NCBI GenBank assembly: GCA_945882415.1
Contig: CAMCWC010000008.1
Coordinates: 62,001-126,000 of the forward strand
Direction: 5' to 3'
Length of the DNA stretch: 64,000 bases
Source: Chthonomonas calidirosea
GTDB taxonomy: Bacteria; Armatimonadota; Fimbriimonadia; Fimbriimonadales; Fimbriimonadaceae
The notes beneath the pieces are model-generated. The model saw only the letters and a list, made by a program, of their open reading frames with translations, ran no database searches and was not told the DNA's origin. The position numbers and the translations under genes were made by a program. Below are positions 2,422-38,082 of this stretch, piece by piece. Each line of letters opens with the position of its first letter. Position 1 is the first letter of the stretch.

Positions 2422-3996
2422 CTAGACCTTACGAATAAACGCGGAGTACCGAGGCGCTGCACCGGTATCGATGCAAGAAAGCAACAGTTCTACGCGAACA
2501 TCTTCTTTTGCCTTGTTGAGGCCATGGATCTTGATGATCTGCCCCATGACCCGACTTACACGAGTTTCTTTATAACGTCGCAAGCCTTCTTCGTGGGCGG
2601 CCTTGTACTGCTCTGGAACAATCAGGTCAGCTAGGAGTTTGCCCATGGCTTCTTCGGCGGTGTATCCAAAAATCGCTTCCGCTCGCGAGTTCCAGTACTC
2701 AACAATGCCATCGTTGCTGATAACCACAACGCCATCCATTGACGCGCTCAGGACGTTGTGGAAGGTCTCATGTTGAGCTCGCCGCTCGGTGACATCGTTG
2801 TACTTCCACAGGTAGCCCAATCGCTTTCGGTTCTCGCGGACAACGATAAAGTCTCGTTCGTACATCCGACCGTCTGCGAACTTAACGAGGTCCCCATAGG
2901 CGGATTGTGTCGTCACGAGTAGCTGGTCCACGCGATGAAGAAACCCGTCTGGGTCCGCAAACATTGGCAGAGAAAGCCTGGCGATGTCCGCACAGTTCGC
3001 GCCGATGAGTTCCGAAGGGCTGTTGGTCGCACCAAAAATCTCCAGAAACGCCCGGTTTACGTACTGCAATTTCCGGTTCACATCTTCATAAAGGAACGCC
3101 GTCGGCATGGCATCCGTCAGGGTTTTCAGAAGCATGGCCGTTTCCGTGAGCTGGGCCTCGATCGAACGGCGATCGATTTCAGCACGCCAGCCGACGAGAT
3201 AATTCGCGCAGGTCGCGATGAGCGGAGCCAGGTAGTCGACGATTTGCTGGTCGTAGCCGCCAGGTCGATTTCCGAGGCCGATGACGCCGACCATTTCTTC
3301 ATCGCTGAAAACGGGAATGCCGAGATATGTACTGATGGTGAGATCAAGGGCAGCGATTTCGTCGCAGTCCGAGCTTTCCTGGCAGTCGTCCTCAATCGTC
3401 ACGTTCTGCGTCGTAAGGATCTTCCCGAAGAGAGACTCCAGGTTTCGGAACTCTAGCCCTGATTCTTTCCACTCGTCAAATTTGCGCCGGGCCTCGCGGC
3501 TGGCCGCAAGATCGGTCAGGGCATTTGCCACAAGGTACGGATTCCCGTCCGCATCCACTTTCACCTCGCCTAAGAATCCGAACTCAGATTGAGTCAAACC
3601 AAGGAGTTCGTGGAGATACCGATCAAAAACTTCTCGGTAACCACGCTTTCCAGAGATAAAGTCAAGCGAGCATTCGGTAATGGCTTGAAGTAGGTTTCGC
3701 TGGTCAAGCTCTCGTGCTTCGGCCTTCGTTCGGACGGAAACTTCCGACGCCAGGCGAACCGCTTCTTCGCCCTGTTCTTTTACCCACTCCATCGCCTTCT
3801 GCTCTGCATGGCGGGCAACGACTTCGGTGCGGCTCACCGCATCGTATTTGAGCAGGATGCGCCGCCAGTAGCTTGCGACGGTGTCCTTACTGATGCCGAG
3901 GTTAGAAGCAATCTGCTTATCGGTATTTCCTTCGGCGGCCAGTTCTAAAATTTGAAGCTCTCGCCCCGTTGCTTTGGCTTCGCGCTGTGGTCTCAT
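2422..3996 (-). CDS. LuxR-type HTH / GAF / PAS-PAS regulator
   Basis: A 524-aa one-component sensor-regulator. Residues about 8-65 form a LuxR-type HTH at the N-terminus (ending near the TVASYWRRIL helix), followed by a short coiled linker, a GAF-like domain (about 95-275) and two PAS domains (about 290-400 and 400-520; the second has SMDGVVVISNDGIVEYWN and RAEAIFGYTAEE). No kinase, receiver or cyclase domain follows. The family normally places the LuxR HTH at the C-terminus, so the order is inverted. I chose ATG at 3996. An in-frame TTG at 4017 adds seven residues; neither has a strong ribosome site. A paralogous HTH occurs at 1-427. The signal sensed is unknown. Confidence 0.85.
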   Translation of the reverse strand: MRPQREAKATGRELQILELAAEGNTDKQIASNLGISKDTVASYWRRILLKYDAVSRTEVVARHAEQKAMEWVKEQGEEAVRLASEVSVRTKAEARELDQRNLLQAITECSLDFISGKRGYREVFDRYLHELLGLTQSEFGFLGEVKVDADGNPYLVANALTDLAASREARRKFDEWKESGLEFRNLESLFGKILTTQNVTIEDDCQESSDCDEIAALDLTISTYLGIPVFSDEEMVGVIGLGNRPGGYDQQIVDYLAPLIATCANYLVGWRAEIDRRSIEAQLTETAMLLKTLTDAMPTAFLYEDVNRKLQYVNRAFLEIFGATNSPSELIGANCADIARLSLPMFADPDGFLHRVDQLLVTTQSAYGDLVKFADGRMYERDFIVVRENRKRLGYLWKYNDVTERRAQHETFHNVLSASMDGVVVISNDGIVEYWNSRAEAIFGYTAEEAMGKLLADLIVPEQYKAAHEEGLRRYKETRVSRVMGQIIKIHGLNKAKEDVRVELLLSCIDTGAAPRYSAFIRKV

Positions 3997-30990: not shown

Positions 30991-31675
30991 GCGCCTACGC
31001 TACCGGATGCCCCACCCTTCTTCGCAACTTCGCCCGAGCATCGTTGGACCGTGGATTAACGTTGGCCAGGGTCTTACTCACTCAGCGTGGCATAGAGTGT
31101 CTGTCGTTAAGGGCGTAGACGGACAGCTTCATACGCACGCAAAGTACCTTCGGACGGTCGCTCAAACGTAATGGACAATTCTTGACTTCGGTTCATACGA
31201 CGGTCGCACCGTGATTTTGGCTAAGCCACTTCTGTCAATGTGGCCGACTTTGCAATGGGCAAAGGAAACTCGCGCCTCAATCATGGCCTTCATTGAGATT
31301 GGAACAGTCTAATTCTATTAGGATCTACGCCGAGTGGATTGCTGATACTTGAACAGAGGCGAACGTCTTTCCAACCGCGGCTCCGCCCTAAACAGATCTC
31401 AGCAAGGTCTCGCCTGAATGGCGGCCTGTTGTACGGTCAGAGTGGAACCCGGTCGCCTCATGGTTGGAGATTTTGCCCGGTATCGCAAAGCTGTACTTGA
31501 CTCAACTTCCACTGAGTGCCGTCTGGATGAGCAAAGCCTTTTACGCTGACGACGAACACCGGCGTTCGCTAATCCGTGTGCAGAATTCGTAGAACTCCGA
31601 TTACAAACGTGATTCTCGGCGACGATTTTCTACGGGCCCATTCGTCGTCTTTCTCAAGTATCATGAGGTAATCGA
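30991..31675. other. gene-free stretch at left side of the defence island
   Basis: About 680 nt with no ORF of protein character on either strand, no repeat and no integrase or transposase remnant that I can recognise. It separates chromosomal genes from the IetAS-like pair and may hold decayed DNA. Confidence 0.5.
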
Positions 31676-32647
31676 ATGGCTACCGCAGAGCAAATAAAAG
31701 CCCTGATTCGGTCGCACGTCGGTGACGACTCGGAAAGATTTTACACTCTGGCCCTCCAGATCGCAGCTCACGAGGCTCACCAGGGCCACGGAGCGTTGGC
31801 TCACGAAATTCGAGACCTTGTGGACAGAGCGCGTTCACAAAAGAAAAAGCTCCTCGCTGGCACTATCTCACCAGAATTGGACGGACTGCTTCAATCCGAG
31901 CTGCCCGGCTCCCCCATGTCCGCCCTTGTCCTTCCGCTTCAACTCATCGAGAGGATCGAGCGAATCATCTATGAATATCGACAGAGAGACAAGCTGCGCC
32001 AGCACGCTTTAAAACATCGTAGGAAGATTTTGTTGATTGGCCCGCCGGGCAGTGGCAAGACCATGACTGCCAAGGTTCTTGCTCACGAACTCAGATTGTC
32101 TTTGTTCACGGTTCAGGCAGACCGTCTGATTACCAAGTTTATGGGCGAGACGAGTGCAAGGCTTCGCTCGCTCTTTGAGACTATTCGGGATCATGAAGGA
32201 GTCTATTTTTTCGATGAGTTTGATGCGATCGGCGGTGGTCGTACACGCGAGAACGACGTAGGCGAAATGCGTCGTGTCCTTACATCGCTCCTTCAGTTCA
32301 TTGAGCAGGACTCATCGGACAGCATCATCCTGGCGGCAACGAATACTCCGGAGATGCTCGACAAGGCATTGTATCGCCGCTTTGACGATGTCCTATCATA
32401 CGGTTTTCCAGATGAACAAGAGCGAAAACGGTTGATTGGCAATACACTCGGACTTTTCTTGAGCAAAGGCTTCGGTTGGAAAACCGCCCTCCATTCTAGT
32501 ATTGGATTGAGCTCCGCTGAGGTAGTTCAGGCTTGCGAAGACGCTTTGAAGGAAGCAATTCTAAGCGACGAAAAATCTGTGACTGCTGCACGGATGAGTT
32601 TCGCGTTCCAAGAACGCCAGTCGACACATCGGGGTGAGGTCCGATAG
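31676..32647 (+). CDS. ietA: AAA+ ATPase, IetA-like anti-phage component
   Basis: A 323-aa ATPase. An N-terminal helical domain (about 1-95) precedes the AAA+ core: Walker A GPPGSGKT (122-129), Walker B FFDEFDAIG (Asp180, Glu181), sensor 1 ILAATNTPEMLD and an arginine-finger-like LYRRFDD. It is directly followed by a subtilisin-like protease; this pair matches the anti-phage system IetAS described from defence islands. GAGGT 6 nt before the ATG supports the start. Its TAG stop overlaps the ATA proposed as the protease start; if base 32646 were G, the ATPase would continue for eight more codons to a second TAG. Confidence 0.85.
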   Translation: MATAEQIKALIRSHVGDDSERFYTLALQIAAHEAHQGHGALAHEIRDLVDRARSQKKKLLAGTISPELDGLLQSELPGSPMSALVLPLQLIERIERIIYEYRQRDKLRQHALKHRRKILLIGPPGSGKTMTAKVLAHELRLSLFTVQADRLITKFMGETSARLRSLFETIRDHEGVYFFDEFDAIGGGRTRENDVGEMRRVLTSLLQFIEQDSSDSIILAATNTPEMLDKALYRRFDDVLSYGFPDEQERKRLIGNTLGLFLSKGFGWKTALHSSIGLSSAEVVQACEDALKEAILSDEKSVTAARMSFAFQERQSTHRGEVR

Positions 32648-35106
32648 CGGATCACGACTACCCGTTAGTATTTCTCCCTGATTCAGTTCAGGGAGAACCG
32701 TATACAAGCCCTCGAAGCGGCCGCGATAACCAAGTATTCCCTTCCAGAGATAGGGTTGAGCATGCGCAACGCCTGCAAACTCGCTTTGATGAAGCCTGGA
32801 ATGAAGCCGAGGGTCGGAGCGCTGTCGCCCACGCGAGTAAAGATGGAGTCTATCTTGAATTTGAAGGCTCTCCAGGGTACGATCTTCGGACCAAGAGCCT
32901 TGACAACCGAACTCATGGCATCAAGCTTCTTAATGTTCGCTCCGTATCAAACGCTGGCCATAACGCCTATTTTGCGACAGTTTACGTTCCGAAATCTAAG
33001 AGTGGCTTCTTTGTTAAGAAGCTCTCAGAATATCAGTCTGAGGACATCGAAGCGTCCGGCAATCCGAAAAACGCGGCGCTAATAAACAGTATCGAGGATA
33101 TTCGTCTGGCTCTCGTTAGGTCATTCTGGACGGATGCTCTCGACAAATTTCCTGCGGAACAGCGTGTTTGGGTTGAGGTTTGGATAAGACGAGAATCCGA
33201 CGATGAACTGTTTCGGGCCAAATTACAGGCACTTGGCCTGACTGAACACCGTGATCTTCCCGTGCTTCACTTCCCGGAGCGTAGCGTCTTTCTCGTTTGG
33301 GCAAACGAAAAAGACCTGGCAAAATTGATCGACCATTCAGATCAACTAGCCGAACTTCGCCTTGCGTCTGAACCCAGTTCGTTTTTTGTCACCTTGCCAA
33401 ACAGCGAACAAGTAGATTGGTCAGCAGACCTTCTAAAAAGGTGTACTTACCACAATCCACATGATGTTGTGATTTGCCTATTGGATGGTGGGCTCAATAT
33501 TGGCCATCCCTTGATATCTCCAGCAACATCTCCCGCAGATGTTATGGCTGTGGATTCGGCATGGGGTACAGGTGATACAGGCCGTCATGGCACTTTGATG
33601 GCTGGACTAGCCTTATATGGTGACTTGTACTCAGTGCTGGCCATACGGCAGCCAGTGAATGTATACCACCGTCTTGAGTCCGTTAAGATCATTCCTCCAA
33701 AGGCATTCGGGGGAACGCCGAAGAACCTTTGGGGCTATGTAATGGCTCAAGGTGTGTATCTCGCAGAAGCAAATGCGTATAAAAAGAACCGGGTGTTTTG
33801 CATGGCAGTAACAGCAACTGAAACGAGAGCCCGTGGGAAGCCGACGTCGTGGTCCGCTCAAGCTGATCAGTTGGCCGCTGGCGTTTCGGACCCAATACGG
33901 CGATTTCTGATCGTGAGTAGCGGCAACATTGACGAGTCAGAAGAATGGAAACTTTATCCTTCAAGTAACAAAACAAATGAAATCCATGATCCGGGACAAG
34001 CTTGGAATGTCCTTACAGTTGGTGCATTTACTTCTAAAATTGTAATTAGTGACCCAACTTACAACGGATATGAACCGATTGCGCCTTCTGGAAGCCTTTC
34101 ACCATTTAGCACTACTTCACTAACATGGGCGAGCGGTCAACCAATTAAGCCTGAGGTGCTGTTTGAAGGGGGTAATGCAGCCAAGACACCTGGAGGAGAC
34201 GCAGACAATCCCGACGATTTGCAACTGATTTCGACATATCACAACCCTATGATTGCGAACTTCGGTAGATTCAGTGCGACGAGCGCGGCGTCAGCCCAAG
34301 CGGCTCAATTCGCTGCAACAATCTTGGCACGCTATCCAGAGACCAACCCAGAAACACTTCGAGGTCTCATAGTGCATTCTGCCGCTTGGACACAATCGAT
34401 GCTTGATGCATTCAAGCAAGGAGCAGGCAAAAATGCATACAAAGATTTAGTAAGGATATGCGGATATGGCATTCCAGATATTGACCGCGCGATCCGGTGT
34501 CTCAGTAGCCGACTGACGATGATCTGCGAAGGTCAATTGCGACCATTCAAAAAGAAGCCAGATGGAAGAGTTGTCACGAACGAGATCAAGTTTTACGATC
34601 TGCCTTGGCCAAAGGAAACCTTAGAGCAGCTGGGAAATACCAGGGTTAGTATGCGCGTGACACTTTCCTATTTCGTTGAGCCGAGCCCAGGTGAGGTTGG
34701 CTGGAATCGCCCGTCTGGTTATGCTTCACACGGGCTTAGATTCGACGTGAATAATCCGAGCGAGACCAAGGAAGAATTTGTTATTCGGAAGAACAAAGAG
34801 GCTCGGGATGAGGAGGATGCGCCAGGAAATTTCTCAGCCAGTAACTTCTGGACTCTCGGCAAGCTCAGGGACGTGGGCTCCATTCATTCAGACGTATGGA
34901 GCGGAACTGCCGCAGACCTTGCTTCCTCAAACTTCATAGCTGTTTATCCAACAATCGGTTGGTGGCGTGAGAGGCCACACCTTAATCAGTGGGATAAGCC
35001 AGCGAGATACAGCTTGATCGTATCAATTCAGACCCCGCCGACCGAACTTGACATCTATGCAGAAGTTCAAAACGCTATATCTGTTCAGGTACCCATTGAG
35101 ACTTGA
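32644..35106 (+). CDS. ietS: subtilisin-like S8 protease, IetS-like, with non-canonical (ATA) or lost start
   Basis: The frame that encodes the protease is open and protein-like from 32638 (after TGA), with YPLVFLPDS, YTSPRSGRDNQVFPSRDR and RLQTRFDEAWNEA at the N-terminus, as usual for S8 proteases partnered with AAA+ ATPases. No ATG, GTG or TTG occurs in frame before 33262. At the expected place there is ATA (32644), overlapping the ietA TAG, with GGTGAGGT just upstream. Counted from ATA the protein has 820 residues; the catalytic set is complete: Asp281 (LLDGG), His315 (RHGT), Asn428 (SSGN) and Ser547 (ATSAAS). If only GTG 33262 were used, 206 N-terminal residues would be missing. The gene is AT-richer than chromosomal neighbours, suggesting transfer. 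Confidence 0.82.
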   Translation: MADHDYPLVFLPDSVQGEPYTSPRSGRDNQVFPSRDRVEHAQRLQTRFDEAWNEAEGRSAVAHASKDGVYLEFEGSPGYDLRTKSLDNRTHGIKLLNVRSVSNAGHNAYFATVYVPKSKSGFFVKKLSEYQSEDIEASGNPKNAALINSIEDIRLALVRSFWTDALDKFPAEQRVWVEVWIRRESDDELFRAKLQALGLTEHRDLPVLHFPERSVFLVWANEKDLAKLIDHSDQLAELRLASEPSSFFVTLPNSEQVDWSADLLKRCTYHNPHDVVICLLDGGLNIGHPLISPATSPADVMAVDSAWGTGDTGRHGTLMAGLALYGDLYSVLAIRQPVNVYHRLESVKIIPPKAFGGTPKNLWGYVMAQGVYLAEANAYKKNRVFCMAVTATETRARGKPTSWSAQADQLAAGVSDPIRRFLIVSSGNIDESEEWKLYPSSNKTNEIHDPGQAWNVLTVGAFTSKIVISDPTYNGYEPIAPSGSLSPFSTTSLTWASGQPIKPEVLFEGGNAAKTPGGDADNPDDLQLISTYHNPMIANFGRFSATSAASAQAAQFAATILARYPETNPETLRGLIVHSAAWTQSMLDAFKQGAGKNAYKDLVRICGYGIPDIDRAIRCLSSRLTMICEGQLRPFKKKPDGRVVTNEIKFYDLPWPKETLEQLGNTRVSMRVTLSYFVEPSPGEVGWNRPSGYASHGLRFDVNNPSETKEEFVIRKNKEARDEEDAPGNFSASNFWTLGKLRDVGSIHSDVWSGTAADLASSNFIAVYPTIGWWRERPHLNQWDKPARYSLIVSIQTPPTELDIYAEVQNAISVQVPIET

Positions 35107-35401
35107 AAGACTCCATAAGCGCAATTCAGGATGCATGCGTGCCGATACACTGCATAGCACTTTCCAAGAGCTATGCGCATAAAAGTGCTAAGTCCAAGCC
35201 GGATAACACAACACTTGAGAATCATTGAGCGATGTAGAACCTTCGGCCAATTTCCCGTAATGTCATAATTGTAAAGGGTCAGCTTTACCGCCTCCATTTT
35301 CCGGTGATGCGCCTGACTACTCCAAGAAGAGTTTAATAAAATCAAGCGGGTGCGTCAGGAATTGCCTGCAGCAAATGCAGCTCAGACCCGATCGACAGAA
35401 T
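35107..35401. other. intergenic region with two competing hairpins
   Basis: TAGCACTTT (35155-35163) pairs perfectly with AAAGTGCTA (35182-35190). GCATAGC (35152-35158) also pairs perfectly with GCTATGC (35170-35176). The two stems share bases and exclude each other. No T-tract follows directly. No ORF of protein character is present. Confidence 0.45.
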
Positions 35402-35899
35402 TCAGCTCTCTAAAATGGGTTGTCGAACAGCGATTTCTTCGTCGATTCTCAAAGGTCCATCGCGAAGCAACACCCAGCATGACCGGAACCCCATCTCCGT
35501 CAAGGCATCGACGCGGTGGTTGCCGTCAGCCAGGTTGATAACGCCATCTAGCTCTTGCCATGCAATCACGGGCGGAAGGCTGTCCGGTGAGGGGCGGGTG
35601 GCAACAATCGCCTGTATTGCCCTTATCCACTCATCCGGAACTTGAGGGAACCGGAATGACTCGGATGGTCCGGCGATCCGTTGGAGGCGGGCAATCTCAA
35701 TGAGTTGTGGCGGTAGCCATGATGACGAGTGGGCCCGAACCCGCCGAAGCAGCCCCAGATTCTGCCAACTTTCCACTTGCAGATATCGTTCGATCCAATC
35801 TTGGTCCTCGCCCCGTTCGAACGCCATCTGCGCCGATTTCAAATCCCATTCGCTACTCAATTCACTGCGCCCTGAATGCACTCTGGTTCGTTCCTGCAC
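35402..35899 (-). CDS. ParB/Srx-like nuclease-fold protein
   Basis: A 165-aa protein. Its C-terminal half has the ParB N-terminal-domain signature: VIAWQELDGVINLADGNHR, then VDALTEMGFRSCWVLL (the DGNHRVDAL box corresponds to the DGxHRxxAL core). The first 80 residues are helical and unknown. Stand-alone proteins with this fold include nucleases and CTP-dependent switches; function here is unknown. It lies between the IetAS-like pair and a membrane protein gene, on the opposite strand from IetAS. Confidence 0.68.
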   Translation of the reverse strand: MQERTRVHSGRSELSSEWDLKSAQMAFERGEDQDWIERYLQVESWQNLGLLRRVRAHSSSWLPPQLIEIARLQRIAGPSESFRFPQVPDEWIRAIQAIVATRPSPDSLPPVIAWQELDGVINLADGNHRVDALTEMGFRSCWVLLRDGPLRIDEEIAVRQPILES

Positions 35900-35912
35900 T
35901 CAAGGAAGCAGA

Positions 35913-36626
35913 TCATTTGTCAGACTCGCCTTCGTGCTCGATCGATAATGGGTCTTCGTCCTCAAACCACTTGCTACTGAAGTTAGGCATGAAGCAAATC
36001 ACGAGGTAAGCGGTGCACAAGCATAAGACTGTGATGCTCACCAGCAGTTGAATCGGCTTCACCTCCGGCTTTAGCGCCAGAGGAATCGTCCAAATGGTCA
36101 GGGCCATGCCGAGTATGACAAGCGGTGCAATTCGCCTTTGCATTCGCTTAACCTCATCAATCCCTTTCGAGATTTCTTCAAACCTCTCATTGAGTGCCTC
36201 CACCAACTGCTCGGGCGGCAGCTGACTCATCGCCTCGTACTCGCGATTGATTGCTTCCCGCTCCGCAGCATTCTTGCGCTCTTGTGCCTGAATTCGGAAG
36301 AACGCGACGAACGGGAGAACCACCATAATAACGGCCGTACCGATGGAGATTGGCGTCATCGGTTTTTGCAACTCGATCGCTCGATCGACTTTCGCAAACA
36401 TCAGCCCCGTGGTTATGCCGCAAACATTCGCTAGCATCGTGACACCTAATGGCGACTTGCCGCGATGAGCCGCCAACCAAATGATCAAAAGCAAGGTGGC
36501 ACAACCAATCGGCCACTGCACGCTCCCCGCAATGCCGGTCCACTTCGGCATCTTGAAGGTCACCGCCGTAAGCAGGCCCGAGCCAACCATCAGCCAATAG
36601 ATGCGCCGTTCCGGGAACTGCTCCAC
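35913..36626 (-). CDS. hypothetical multi-pass membrane protein
   Basis: A 237-aa protein with about six hydrophobic segments (near 9-24, 34-52, 62-78, 92-110, 168-186, 196-214) and a central cytoplasmic helix with EREAINREYEAMSQL and a Glu-rich stretch. No family recognised. It starts with GTG 36626, only 6 nt after TATAAT on the minus strand (36638-36633), so the mRNA is probably leaderless. It precedes the ParB-like gene by 13 nt and may be co-transcribed with it. Confidence 0.68.
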   Translation of the reverse strand: MEQFPERRIYWLMVGSGLLTAVTFKMPKWTGIAGSVQWPIGCATLLLIIWLAAHRGKSPLGVTMLANVCGITTGLMFAKVDRAIELQKPMTPISIGTAVIMVVLPFVAFFRIQAQERKNAAEREAINREYEAMSQLPPEQLVEALNERFEEISKGIDEVKRMQRRIAPLVILGMALTIWTIPLALKPEVKPIQLLVSITVLCLCTAYLVICFMPNFSSKWFEDEDPLSIEHEGESDK

Positions 36627-36837: not shown

Positions 36838-36962
36838 AATAAAAACGGCGCGCACCTCAGTTGAACCTAAACGGCCATTTAATTAATTAATCTGGCTGGG
36901 GGGGAGCGTTAATTAATTCCACCCAGATGTCCAGAGCGGACACGCTATGGACACGAGAAAAT

Positions 36963-37019
36963 TGGTGGGCGGTACAGGATTCGAACCTGTGACCCTCCCG
37001 GCGCGCCGGGATGCTCTAC
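36963..37019 (-). pseudogene. tRNA-Val 3'-half copy (second tandem copy)
   Basis: Identical to the T arm, acceptor 3' strand and CCA of tRNA-Val at 37144-37218 and to GTAGAGCA of its D arm. The anticodon arm is replaced by a 16-nt perfect palindrome TCCCGGCGCGCCGGGA, one nt shorter than the real arm and without U33. The 5' acceptor strand is missing. It cannot act as a normal tRNA. Confidence 0.7.
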
Positions 37020-37055
37020 ACAGGCGTGCCGCCTGAGTTTTAAGACGGGAAAAGA

Positions 37056-37110
37056 TGGTGGGCGGTACAGGATTCGAACCTGTGACCCTCCCGGCGGGCC
37101 GGGATGCTCT
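37056..37110 (-). pseudogene. tRNA-Val 3'-half copy (first tandem copy)
   Basis: Same construction as the copy at 36963-37019: intact T arm, acceptor 3' strand and CCA, with anticodon arm TCCCGGCCCGCCGGGA (one mismatch to a perfect palindrome). Sequence identity to the tRNA ends after AGAGCA. Start points of the three units are 93 and 88 nt apart. Confidence 0.7.
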
Positions 37111-37143
37111 TCACTTTCGTTCGATCTGGAGGGATTCGTAAGT

Positions 37144-37218
37144 TGGTGGGCGGTACAGGATTCGAACCTGTGACCCCTTCGGTGTGAACGAAGTGCTCTA
37201 CCACTGAGCCAACCGCCC
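37144..37218 (-). tRNA. tRNA-Val (anticodon CAC)
   Basis: A complete 75-nt tRNA with encoded CCA. Acceptor GGGCGGT pairs with ACCGCCC, the anticodon stem CTTCG/CGAAG encloses loop TTCACAC (anticodon CAC, reads GUG), and the T arm is ACAGGTTCGAATCCTGT. The 3' end points towards the two truncated copies and the defence island. Confidence 0.95.
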
Positions 37219-37269
37219 GGACGGATAGAAGAGATTACCTGGTAAACACCCAGGCATCGGGCCGGGTCT

Positions 37270-38082
37270 ATGATCGCAATTCTTCTTCCGCTCATCGTCC
37301 TGCCTCAAATCGCAATCGAGCGTCCGCTACCGATCGCTCGGCGATTCCTCCGCAAGGGGCACAAGTTCATCGTTTGCGCCCACCGTGGGGACCATACGGA
37401 GGCCCCGGAGAACTCGCTCGAGGCCTACGATCGCGCCATCAAGATCGGCGCAGACTTTGGCGAGGTGGACCTGCGGATGACCAAGGACGGCGTGATCGTG
37501 CTGATGCACGACGCGACCGTCGACCGAACCACCGACGGACATGGAACGGTTTCGAACCTAACGCTGCAGGAGATCAAGGCGCTGAAGTTCAAGCGGGCAA
37601 CGGAGAAGCACGAATCCGTCCCGACTTTTGAAGAACTCCTGAAGGCGGTGCGCGGGAAGATCAACCTGTATCTCGACATCAAGGCGGTCCGAGCGAAGGA
37701 TGTTTTGCCCCTCCTGAAGAAGTACCGAATGGAGCGCAGCGCGATCGCCTACGTCTACGGGCCCGCGAACGTTGATGAATGGCGACGAGATGCCCCAGAA
37801 GTCCCGATCATCTCGGACATTTCAAAAATGACCGATGCCGAGCAAATCGAGCGAGACTGGCGCGCGCATCCGTTCGCGATCAGCGACGGCCGCGCGTCGG
37901 GCTACACGCAACAGATCGTCGACATCTGGCACAAGCTGGGTGTGGTGGTTGTTCCGGACATCCAAAGCGGCGACGAAGGGCCCGCAAAGTGGGCGCCCCT
38001 GCTTGCAATGCGAGTGGATGGATTGCAAACGGATCACCCGAAGGAACTGATCGAGTATCTGAAGTCGGTGGGTGCCCGGTGA
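37270..38082 (+). CDS. glycerophosphodiester phosphodiesterase
   Basis: A 270-aa enzyme that cleaves glycerophosphodiesters to glycerol-3-phosphate and an alcohol. It has the GDPD fingerprints AHRGD (about 36-40), PENSLEAYDRAIKIGADFGEVD-type core (shortened here: PENSLEAY, GEVDLRMTKDG) and VLMHDATVDRTTDG. A hydrophobic N-terminus (MIAILLPLIVLPQIAIE) suggests export or membrane anchoring. It converges with the halogenase operon; the stops are 19 nt apart. Confidence 0.9.
   Translation: MIAILLPLIVLPQIAIERPLPIARRFLRKGHKFIVCAHRGDHTEAPENSLEAYDRAIKIGADFGEVDLRMTKDGVIVLMHDATVDRTTDGHGTVSNLTLQEIKALKFKRATEKHESVPTFEELLKAVRGKINLYLDIKAVRAKDVLPLLKKYRMERSAIAYVYGPANVDEWRRDAPEVPIISDISKMTDAEQIERDWRAHPFAISDGRASGYTQQIVDIWHKLGVVVVPDIQSGDEGPAKWAPLLAMRVDGLQTDHPKELIEYLKSVGAR

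Follow-up and report, generated by a model that had tools for sequence, protein, structure and literature searches.

A probable ATA start codon, overlapping the ietA stop, for the protease gene of an IetAS pair

In the window analyzed here, a stretch of 64,000 nucleotides from Chthonomonas calidirosea, an ATPase gene is followed by a protease gene that lacks a canonical start codon where one is expected, and we asked how such a gene could be translated. A TGA at 32635-32637 bounds the protease frame on its upstream side, and from there the frame stays open over 32638-35106. Its first ATG, GTG or TTG is the GTG at 33262, 206 codons past an ATA at 32644-32646. Direct reading thus bears out what a sequence-only reading of this DNA had reported, namely that no canonical codon occurs in the frame from 32638 to 33262 and that ATA occupies the expected start, where it shares bases with the TAG stop of ietA as ATAG. 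The motif GGTGAGGT was located at 32633-32640. The features of the locus are as follows.

31676-32647, + strand: ietA, AAA+ ATPase (antitoxin/partner), 323 aa, TAG stop at 32645-32647 (PADLOC IetA, E 5e-71; Pfam AAA)
32644-35106, + strand: ietS, subtilase (S8) protease, 820 aa from ATA (PADLOC IetS, E 5e-34; Pfam PF00082, E 4e-53)
32644-32646, + strand: proposed start codon of ietS, ATA; it aligns with M1 of the canonical homologues and with the ATA/ATC/GTC of the clade
32631-32640, + strand: extended Shine-Dalgarno (SD) sequence GGGGTGAGGT, from the ungapped junction alignment, -10.9 kcal/mol against the anti-SD
32644-33261, + strand: N-terminal 206 residues, lost if the start were GTG 33262 (40-42% identity to relatives; AlphaFold model)
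32666-32668, + strand: TAG in the ietA frame, 22 bases past ATA, an offset matching the ietA stop of two relatives (L003 and L093)

An S8 subtilase gene lies directly downstream of an AAA+ ATPase gene, and both the catalytic Asp/His/Ser of the subtilase and the P-loop of the ATPase (GPPGSGKT, Pfam AAA) are kept. The same operon order, together with the PADLOC match, likens the pair to the known IetAS systems (ietA/ietS of pTiC58, sgiAT of SGI1, and TA132/3 of a mycoplasma), and PADLOC and Pfam Peptidase_S8 agree with the earlier description of the protease as IetS-like. The ietAS block (window 31500-36000) has a GC content of 49-52% versus 55-61% in its flanks, which suggests acquisition.

The canonical codons ATG, GTG and TTG make up 5.4% of codons in the window genes, and the probability of 206 codons without any of them is about 1e-5, a post hoc figure. 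For 310 putative genes of this genome, taken from 384 kb (the window and 320 kb of sampled stretches), a median of 8 codons separates the stop codon from the first canonical start. At 208 codons ietS is the extreme, followed by a gene at 123 codons with a non-coding score there. The start-free stretch of ietS looks coding, whereas those of the runners-up do not. One further gene with a coding-like upstream stretch (C4:115076) was rejected, as it looked like a shadow ORF.

Relatives of the IetAS pair were sought in 291 genomes of the phylum, and three close ones were found, each with an IetS about 50% identical to that of the window.

L003: same genus, single-contig genome; IetA 71% identical; start ATC
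L093: same family; IetA 70% identical; GTC, then TTG one codon later
L094: another family; IetA 67% identical; ATA with the same ATAG overlap

These three and the window pair form one clade, with a support of 1.0 in the IetA tree and the concatenation and 0.985 in the IetS tree. The window and L094 are sisters in the IetS tree and the concatenation (support 0.94-0.96), a pair that the IetA tree alone leaves unresolved, and L003 and L093 are sisters in the concatenation (0.998). A scan of viral contigs found no relatives of the IetAS pair.

The junctions of all four clade members align ungapped from -24 (gtcgacacatcggggtgaggtccg-ATA in the window, ccacggacacggaggtcaaaggcg-ATC in L003, acacgggcatggagggcagtcacc-GTC in L093 and gcactctatgggaggtaacttgcc-ATA in L094), and ATG stands at the aligned start in none of the four. 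The alignment with related IetS that had been proposed as a check places a non-ATG codon at the ATA position in each relative. The start of L093 is ambiguous because TTG stands at +3; in the window and L094, ATA is the sole near-cognate codon before the conserved N-terminus because an in-frame stop lies two codons upstream. A near-cognate codon at the conserved N-terminus is thus kept in relatives, ambiguously so in L093. Among the other homologues, which come from plasmids and roughly 80 species, the codon near the aligned place is ATG in 84/86 and GTG in 2/86, and when 29 homologues are aligned, at least 90% have Met in column 1. The start-codon difference is significant (P = 3e-5, Fisher’s exact test, with L093 scored canonical), a value that ignores shared descent. 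The clade has only four members, one of them ambiguous, and shared descent inflates the significance of both the start-codon and the SD comparisons. The conservation of ATA between the window and L094 is partly the conservation of the ietA stop, because TAG fixes its third-base A. Two homologues of the same phylum outside the clade (L095 and L096) start with ATG behind a weak SD. Another two, L013 and L017, were tried as further ATT/ATA starts and rejected; they are counted as canonical because ATG lies three codons on. Near position 3001 these two loci have near-identical ietS starts in genomes assigned to different phyla, which suggests recent transfer or a binning error. In a draft genome, the IetS homologue at L091 3001-5507 is internally frameshifted (18 stops in a one-frame reading).

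The SD sequences were evaluated with an anti-SD checked against the 16S rRNA of the window’s own genome (3' end GGATCACCTCCTT). The SD:anti-SD energies of the four range from -9.8 to -11.6 kcal/mol, compared with a homologue median of -5.05 (P = 0.0015, Mann-Whitney test, uncorrected for shared descent). Only 3-9% of the canonical homologues have an SD this strong, and within ietA itself roughly 2% of sequence windows score -9.8 or stronger. The SD of the window is in register with the GGAGGT/GGAGGG/GGGAGGT of the three relatives, such that an extended SD with proper spacing is found in identical register in 4/4.

The end of ietA and the start of ietS overlap in 4/4 of the clade versus 8/84 of the others; in the remaining 76/84 the ietA stop lies upstream. 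Within the clade, the stop begins either at the second base of the start codon, as ATAG (window and L094), or 22 bases after it (L003 and L093). Because the window retains an ietA-frame TAG at +22, the stop site of L003 and L093, the ancestor is suggested to have had a longer ietA/ietS overlap. In the window/L094 lineage ATA may later have come to double as start and part of the stop, an order of events suggested by the present sequences. It had been claimed that a single base ends ietA and at the same time abolishes the ietS start, which is misleading. IetA has 323 aa in the window, L094 and L096 and 321 in L095; since 323 aa is a normal IetA length, the TAG of the window is the ordinary end of ietA and not a truncation. 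A sense codon in place of that TAG would extend ietA by seven codons (32645-32665) before TAG 32666, not by eight as previously counted.

The protein downstream of ATA shows the marks of constraint. Catalytic D281, H315 and S547 and the oxyanion N428 are conserved in alignments with relatives and homologues, and the frame is open for 820-826 codons in all four clade members. Identity to the relatives is 40-42% over residues 1-206 versus 52-53% over the remainder, which upholds the earlier view that a start at GTG 33262 would cost 206 residues of conserved character. Within residues 1-206, differences per codon position amount to 0.65-0.69 at third positions and 0.38-0.47 at the first two, a bias that fits a coding gene under constraint as judged from the sequences. 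The open frames and this codon-position pattern are not those of a pseudogene, though a very recent silencing of the window copy alone would be invisible here. In the AlphaFold model (mean pLDDT 72.5), residues 38 onward are folded and residues 1-37 are of low confidence; on this model, a start at GTG 33262 would cut through a mostly folded alpha/beta N-terminal domain. No sequence relative of IetS was found in the PDB, and a fold search returned ordinary matches, subtilisins and pro-subtilisins.

Several explanations would dispense with initiation at ATA. A point mutation may have destroyed the ietS start and so shut down the system, leaving a young pseudogene; ATA is generally a poor start and the window gene alone is compatible with a recent event. 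Such a loss is nevertheless improbable, given that L094, which belongs to another family and is 50% identical in IetS, shares both the ATA and the ATAG overlap, that L003 has ATC, and that 4/4 keep the open codons, the catalytic residues and the third-position-biased divergence. The same observations make an error of sequencing or assembly at base 32646 extremely improbable: the base in the window was read from one assembly, and the same codon recurs in the independent assembly of L094, and non-ATG codons stand in two others, one of them a single-contig genome. Both options had been raised by the sequence-only reading, and both are disfavored by the relatives’ non-ATG codons and the intact, conserved proteins in 4/4.

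Alternatively, ietS may need no start of its own, or may start elsewhere. In 4/4, ietS is read in the -1 frame relative to ietA and the two frames overlap, so that -1 frameshifting near the ietA end could yield an IetA-IetS fusion. We regard this as very improbable. Neither CGA TAG nor CCA TAG shows a slippery heptamer, and in the window the two frames share only about 10 bases ahead of the stop. Elsewhere in the family the genes are separate and begin with ATG, and a fusion gives no role to the conserved register of SD, spacing and codon. A start further in would fall at the first canonical codon of each gene, GTG 33262 in the window, ATG +159 in L003 and TTG +30 in L094, but these positions are unrelated and each deletes a different conserved stretch, the window losing most of its folded N-terminal domain. 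Homologue N-termini near 33262 had been named as the observation that would decide for such a start, and the 86 homologues instead begin near the ATA position, which renders an internal start highly improbable.

Initiation at ATA would require a host that tolerates such codons, on which infC is informative. The gene infC is the textbook case of a start restrained by IF3. In the same genus it begins with ATA (most), ATT or ATC behind GAGGT, with ATC in the window’s own genome and ATA in G008, and gene callers likely misplace its start in the genus. No canonical codon is nearby at infC loci L117, L118 and L120-L129. Since infC begins with ATA, ATC or ATT here, these cells very probably can initiate at AUH codons, to judge by homology. 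Precedents from other bacteria indicate what such starts may achieve. In Streptomyces, sigR has a GTC start behind a AGGAGGTG site, is repressed by IF3 and in this way sets the sigma/antisigma ratio, and a canonical codon leads to uncontrolled activity (PMC5472188). A report on Staphylococcus aureus describes AUA starts with an extended SD for infC and ccpN, with ccpN and citZ AUA giving about 10% of AUG in poor medium and ccpN up to 30% in rich medium (PMC13009471). IetS homologues of SGI1 and of a mycoplasma are toxins neutralized by an AAA-ATPase (PMC5006074; PMC8562856). A study of reinitiation at non-canonical codons (PMC4648390) concerns a eukaryotic system and was set aside.

From the sigR and ccpN/citZ precedents and the toxic homologues, we infer a weak, SD-supported initiation at ATA that is coupled to ietA. 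That ATA 32644-32646 is used as the ietS start appears highly probable from the comparisons above. The fuller account, in which ietS is intact, has a genuine non-canonical start coupled to ietA and probably restrained by IF3, and thereby keeps a toxic protease scarce, is likely on the same comparative grounds. Under this account, ribosomes terminating at the ietA TAG, or loading on the SD within the last ietA codons, would reach ATA, where fMet-tRNA would initiate at low efficiency. The weak codon under IF3 restraint would hold the self-toxic IetS low relative to IetA, while the strong SD and the stop-start overlap would give just enough initiation and link IetS output to IetA synthesis. Since IetS homologues are toxins held by an AAA-ATPase, keeping the IetS:IetA ratio low should be important; that this stoichiometry is the purpose of the arrangement is rather probable by analogy with homologues from distant bacteria, and restraint of the ietS start by IF3 is slightly favored. 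Deeply diverged relatives retain a rare codon at this position behind an unusually strong SD, so that a brake built into protease synthesis is the most likely reading of the rare start, ahead of an error or a dead gene. The first of the options offered earlier, a rare start of low efficiency, is thus supported by the ATA/ATAG of L094, the ATC of L003, the GTC of L093 and the strong SDs. It is also conceivable, though unlikely, that IetS synthesis serves as a sensor of initiation fidelity: phage or stress would lower free IF3 or alter initiation, translation of ietS but not of IetA would rise, the balance of the pair would shift to the protease, and defence would be triggered. This speculation likens ietS to infC, which shares the same kind of start.

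The arrangement differs from the surveyed IetAS pairs, in which ietS begins with ATG, or in two cases GTG, mostly downstream of the ietA stop and behind a weaker SD, whereas here an overlap is combined with ATA/ATC/GTC. Its closest analogue is sigR-rsrA of Streptomyces, where likewise one gene of a pair has a lineage-conserved, non-canonical start with a very strong SD, setting the ratio of effector to inhibitor. Unlike ietS, sigR encodes a sigma factor, stands first in its operon and is coupled to the downstream rsrA; its control is experimental, whereas that of ietS is inferred. The AUA starts of infC/ccpN in S. aureus and AUU starts of infC/pcnB in E. coli share an AUH start, extended SD and low initiation, but these genes are housekeeping or regulatory ones and not self-toxic defence proteases, and the available parts of the sources describe no ATAG stop-start overlap. 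No non-canonical start was found in the literature for a toxin-antitoxin or defence pair, which is weak negative evidence for novelty. If confirmed, ietS would be a case in which the toxin level is set by a lineage-conserved non-canonical start fused to the antitoxin stop codon. Such a case would join the few natural AUA starts, present start-codon choice as a safety device in bacterial immunity, account for the truncation that gene callers would impose on such proteins (206 residues in this instance), and provide a directly testable link between IF3 and defence.

Downstream of the pair, the window carries a tRNA-Val at 37144-37218 (- strand). A mechanical ORF at 36945-37295 (- strand) reads like a repeated tRNA-derived peptide, and ARAGORN calls only one tRNA there; this ORF possibly represents tRNA remnants.
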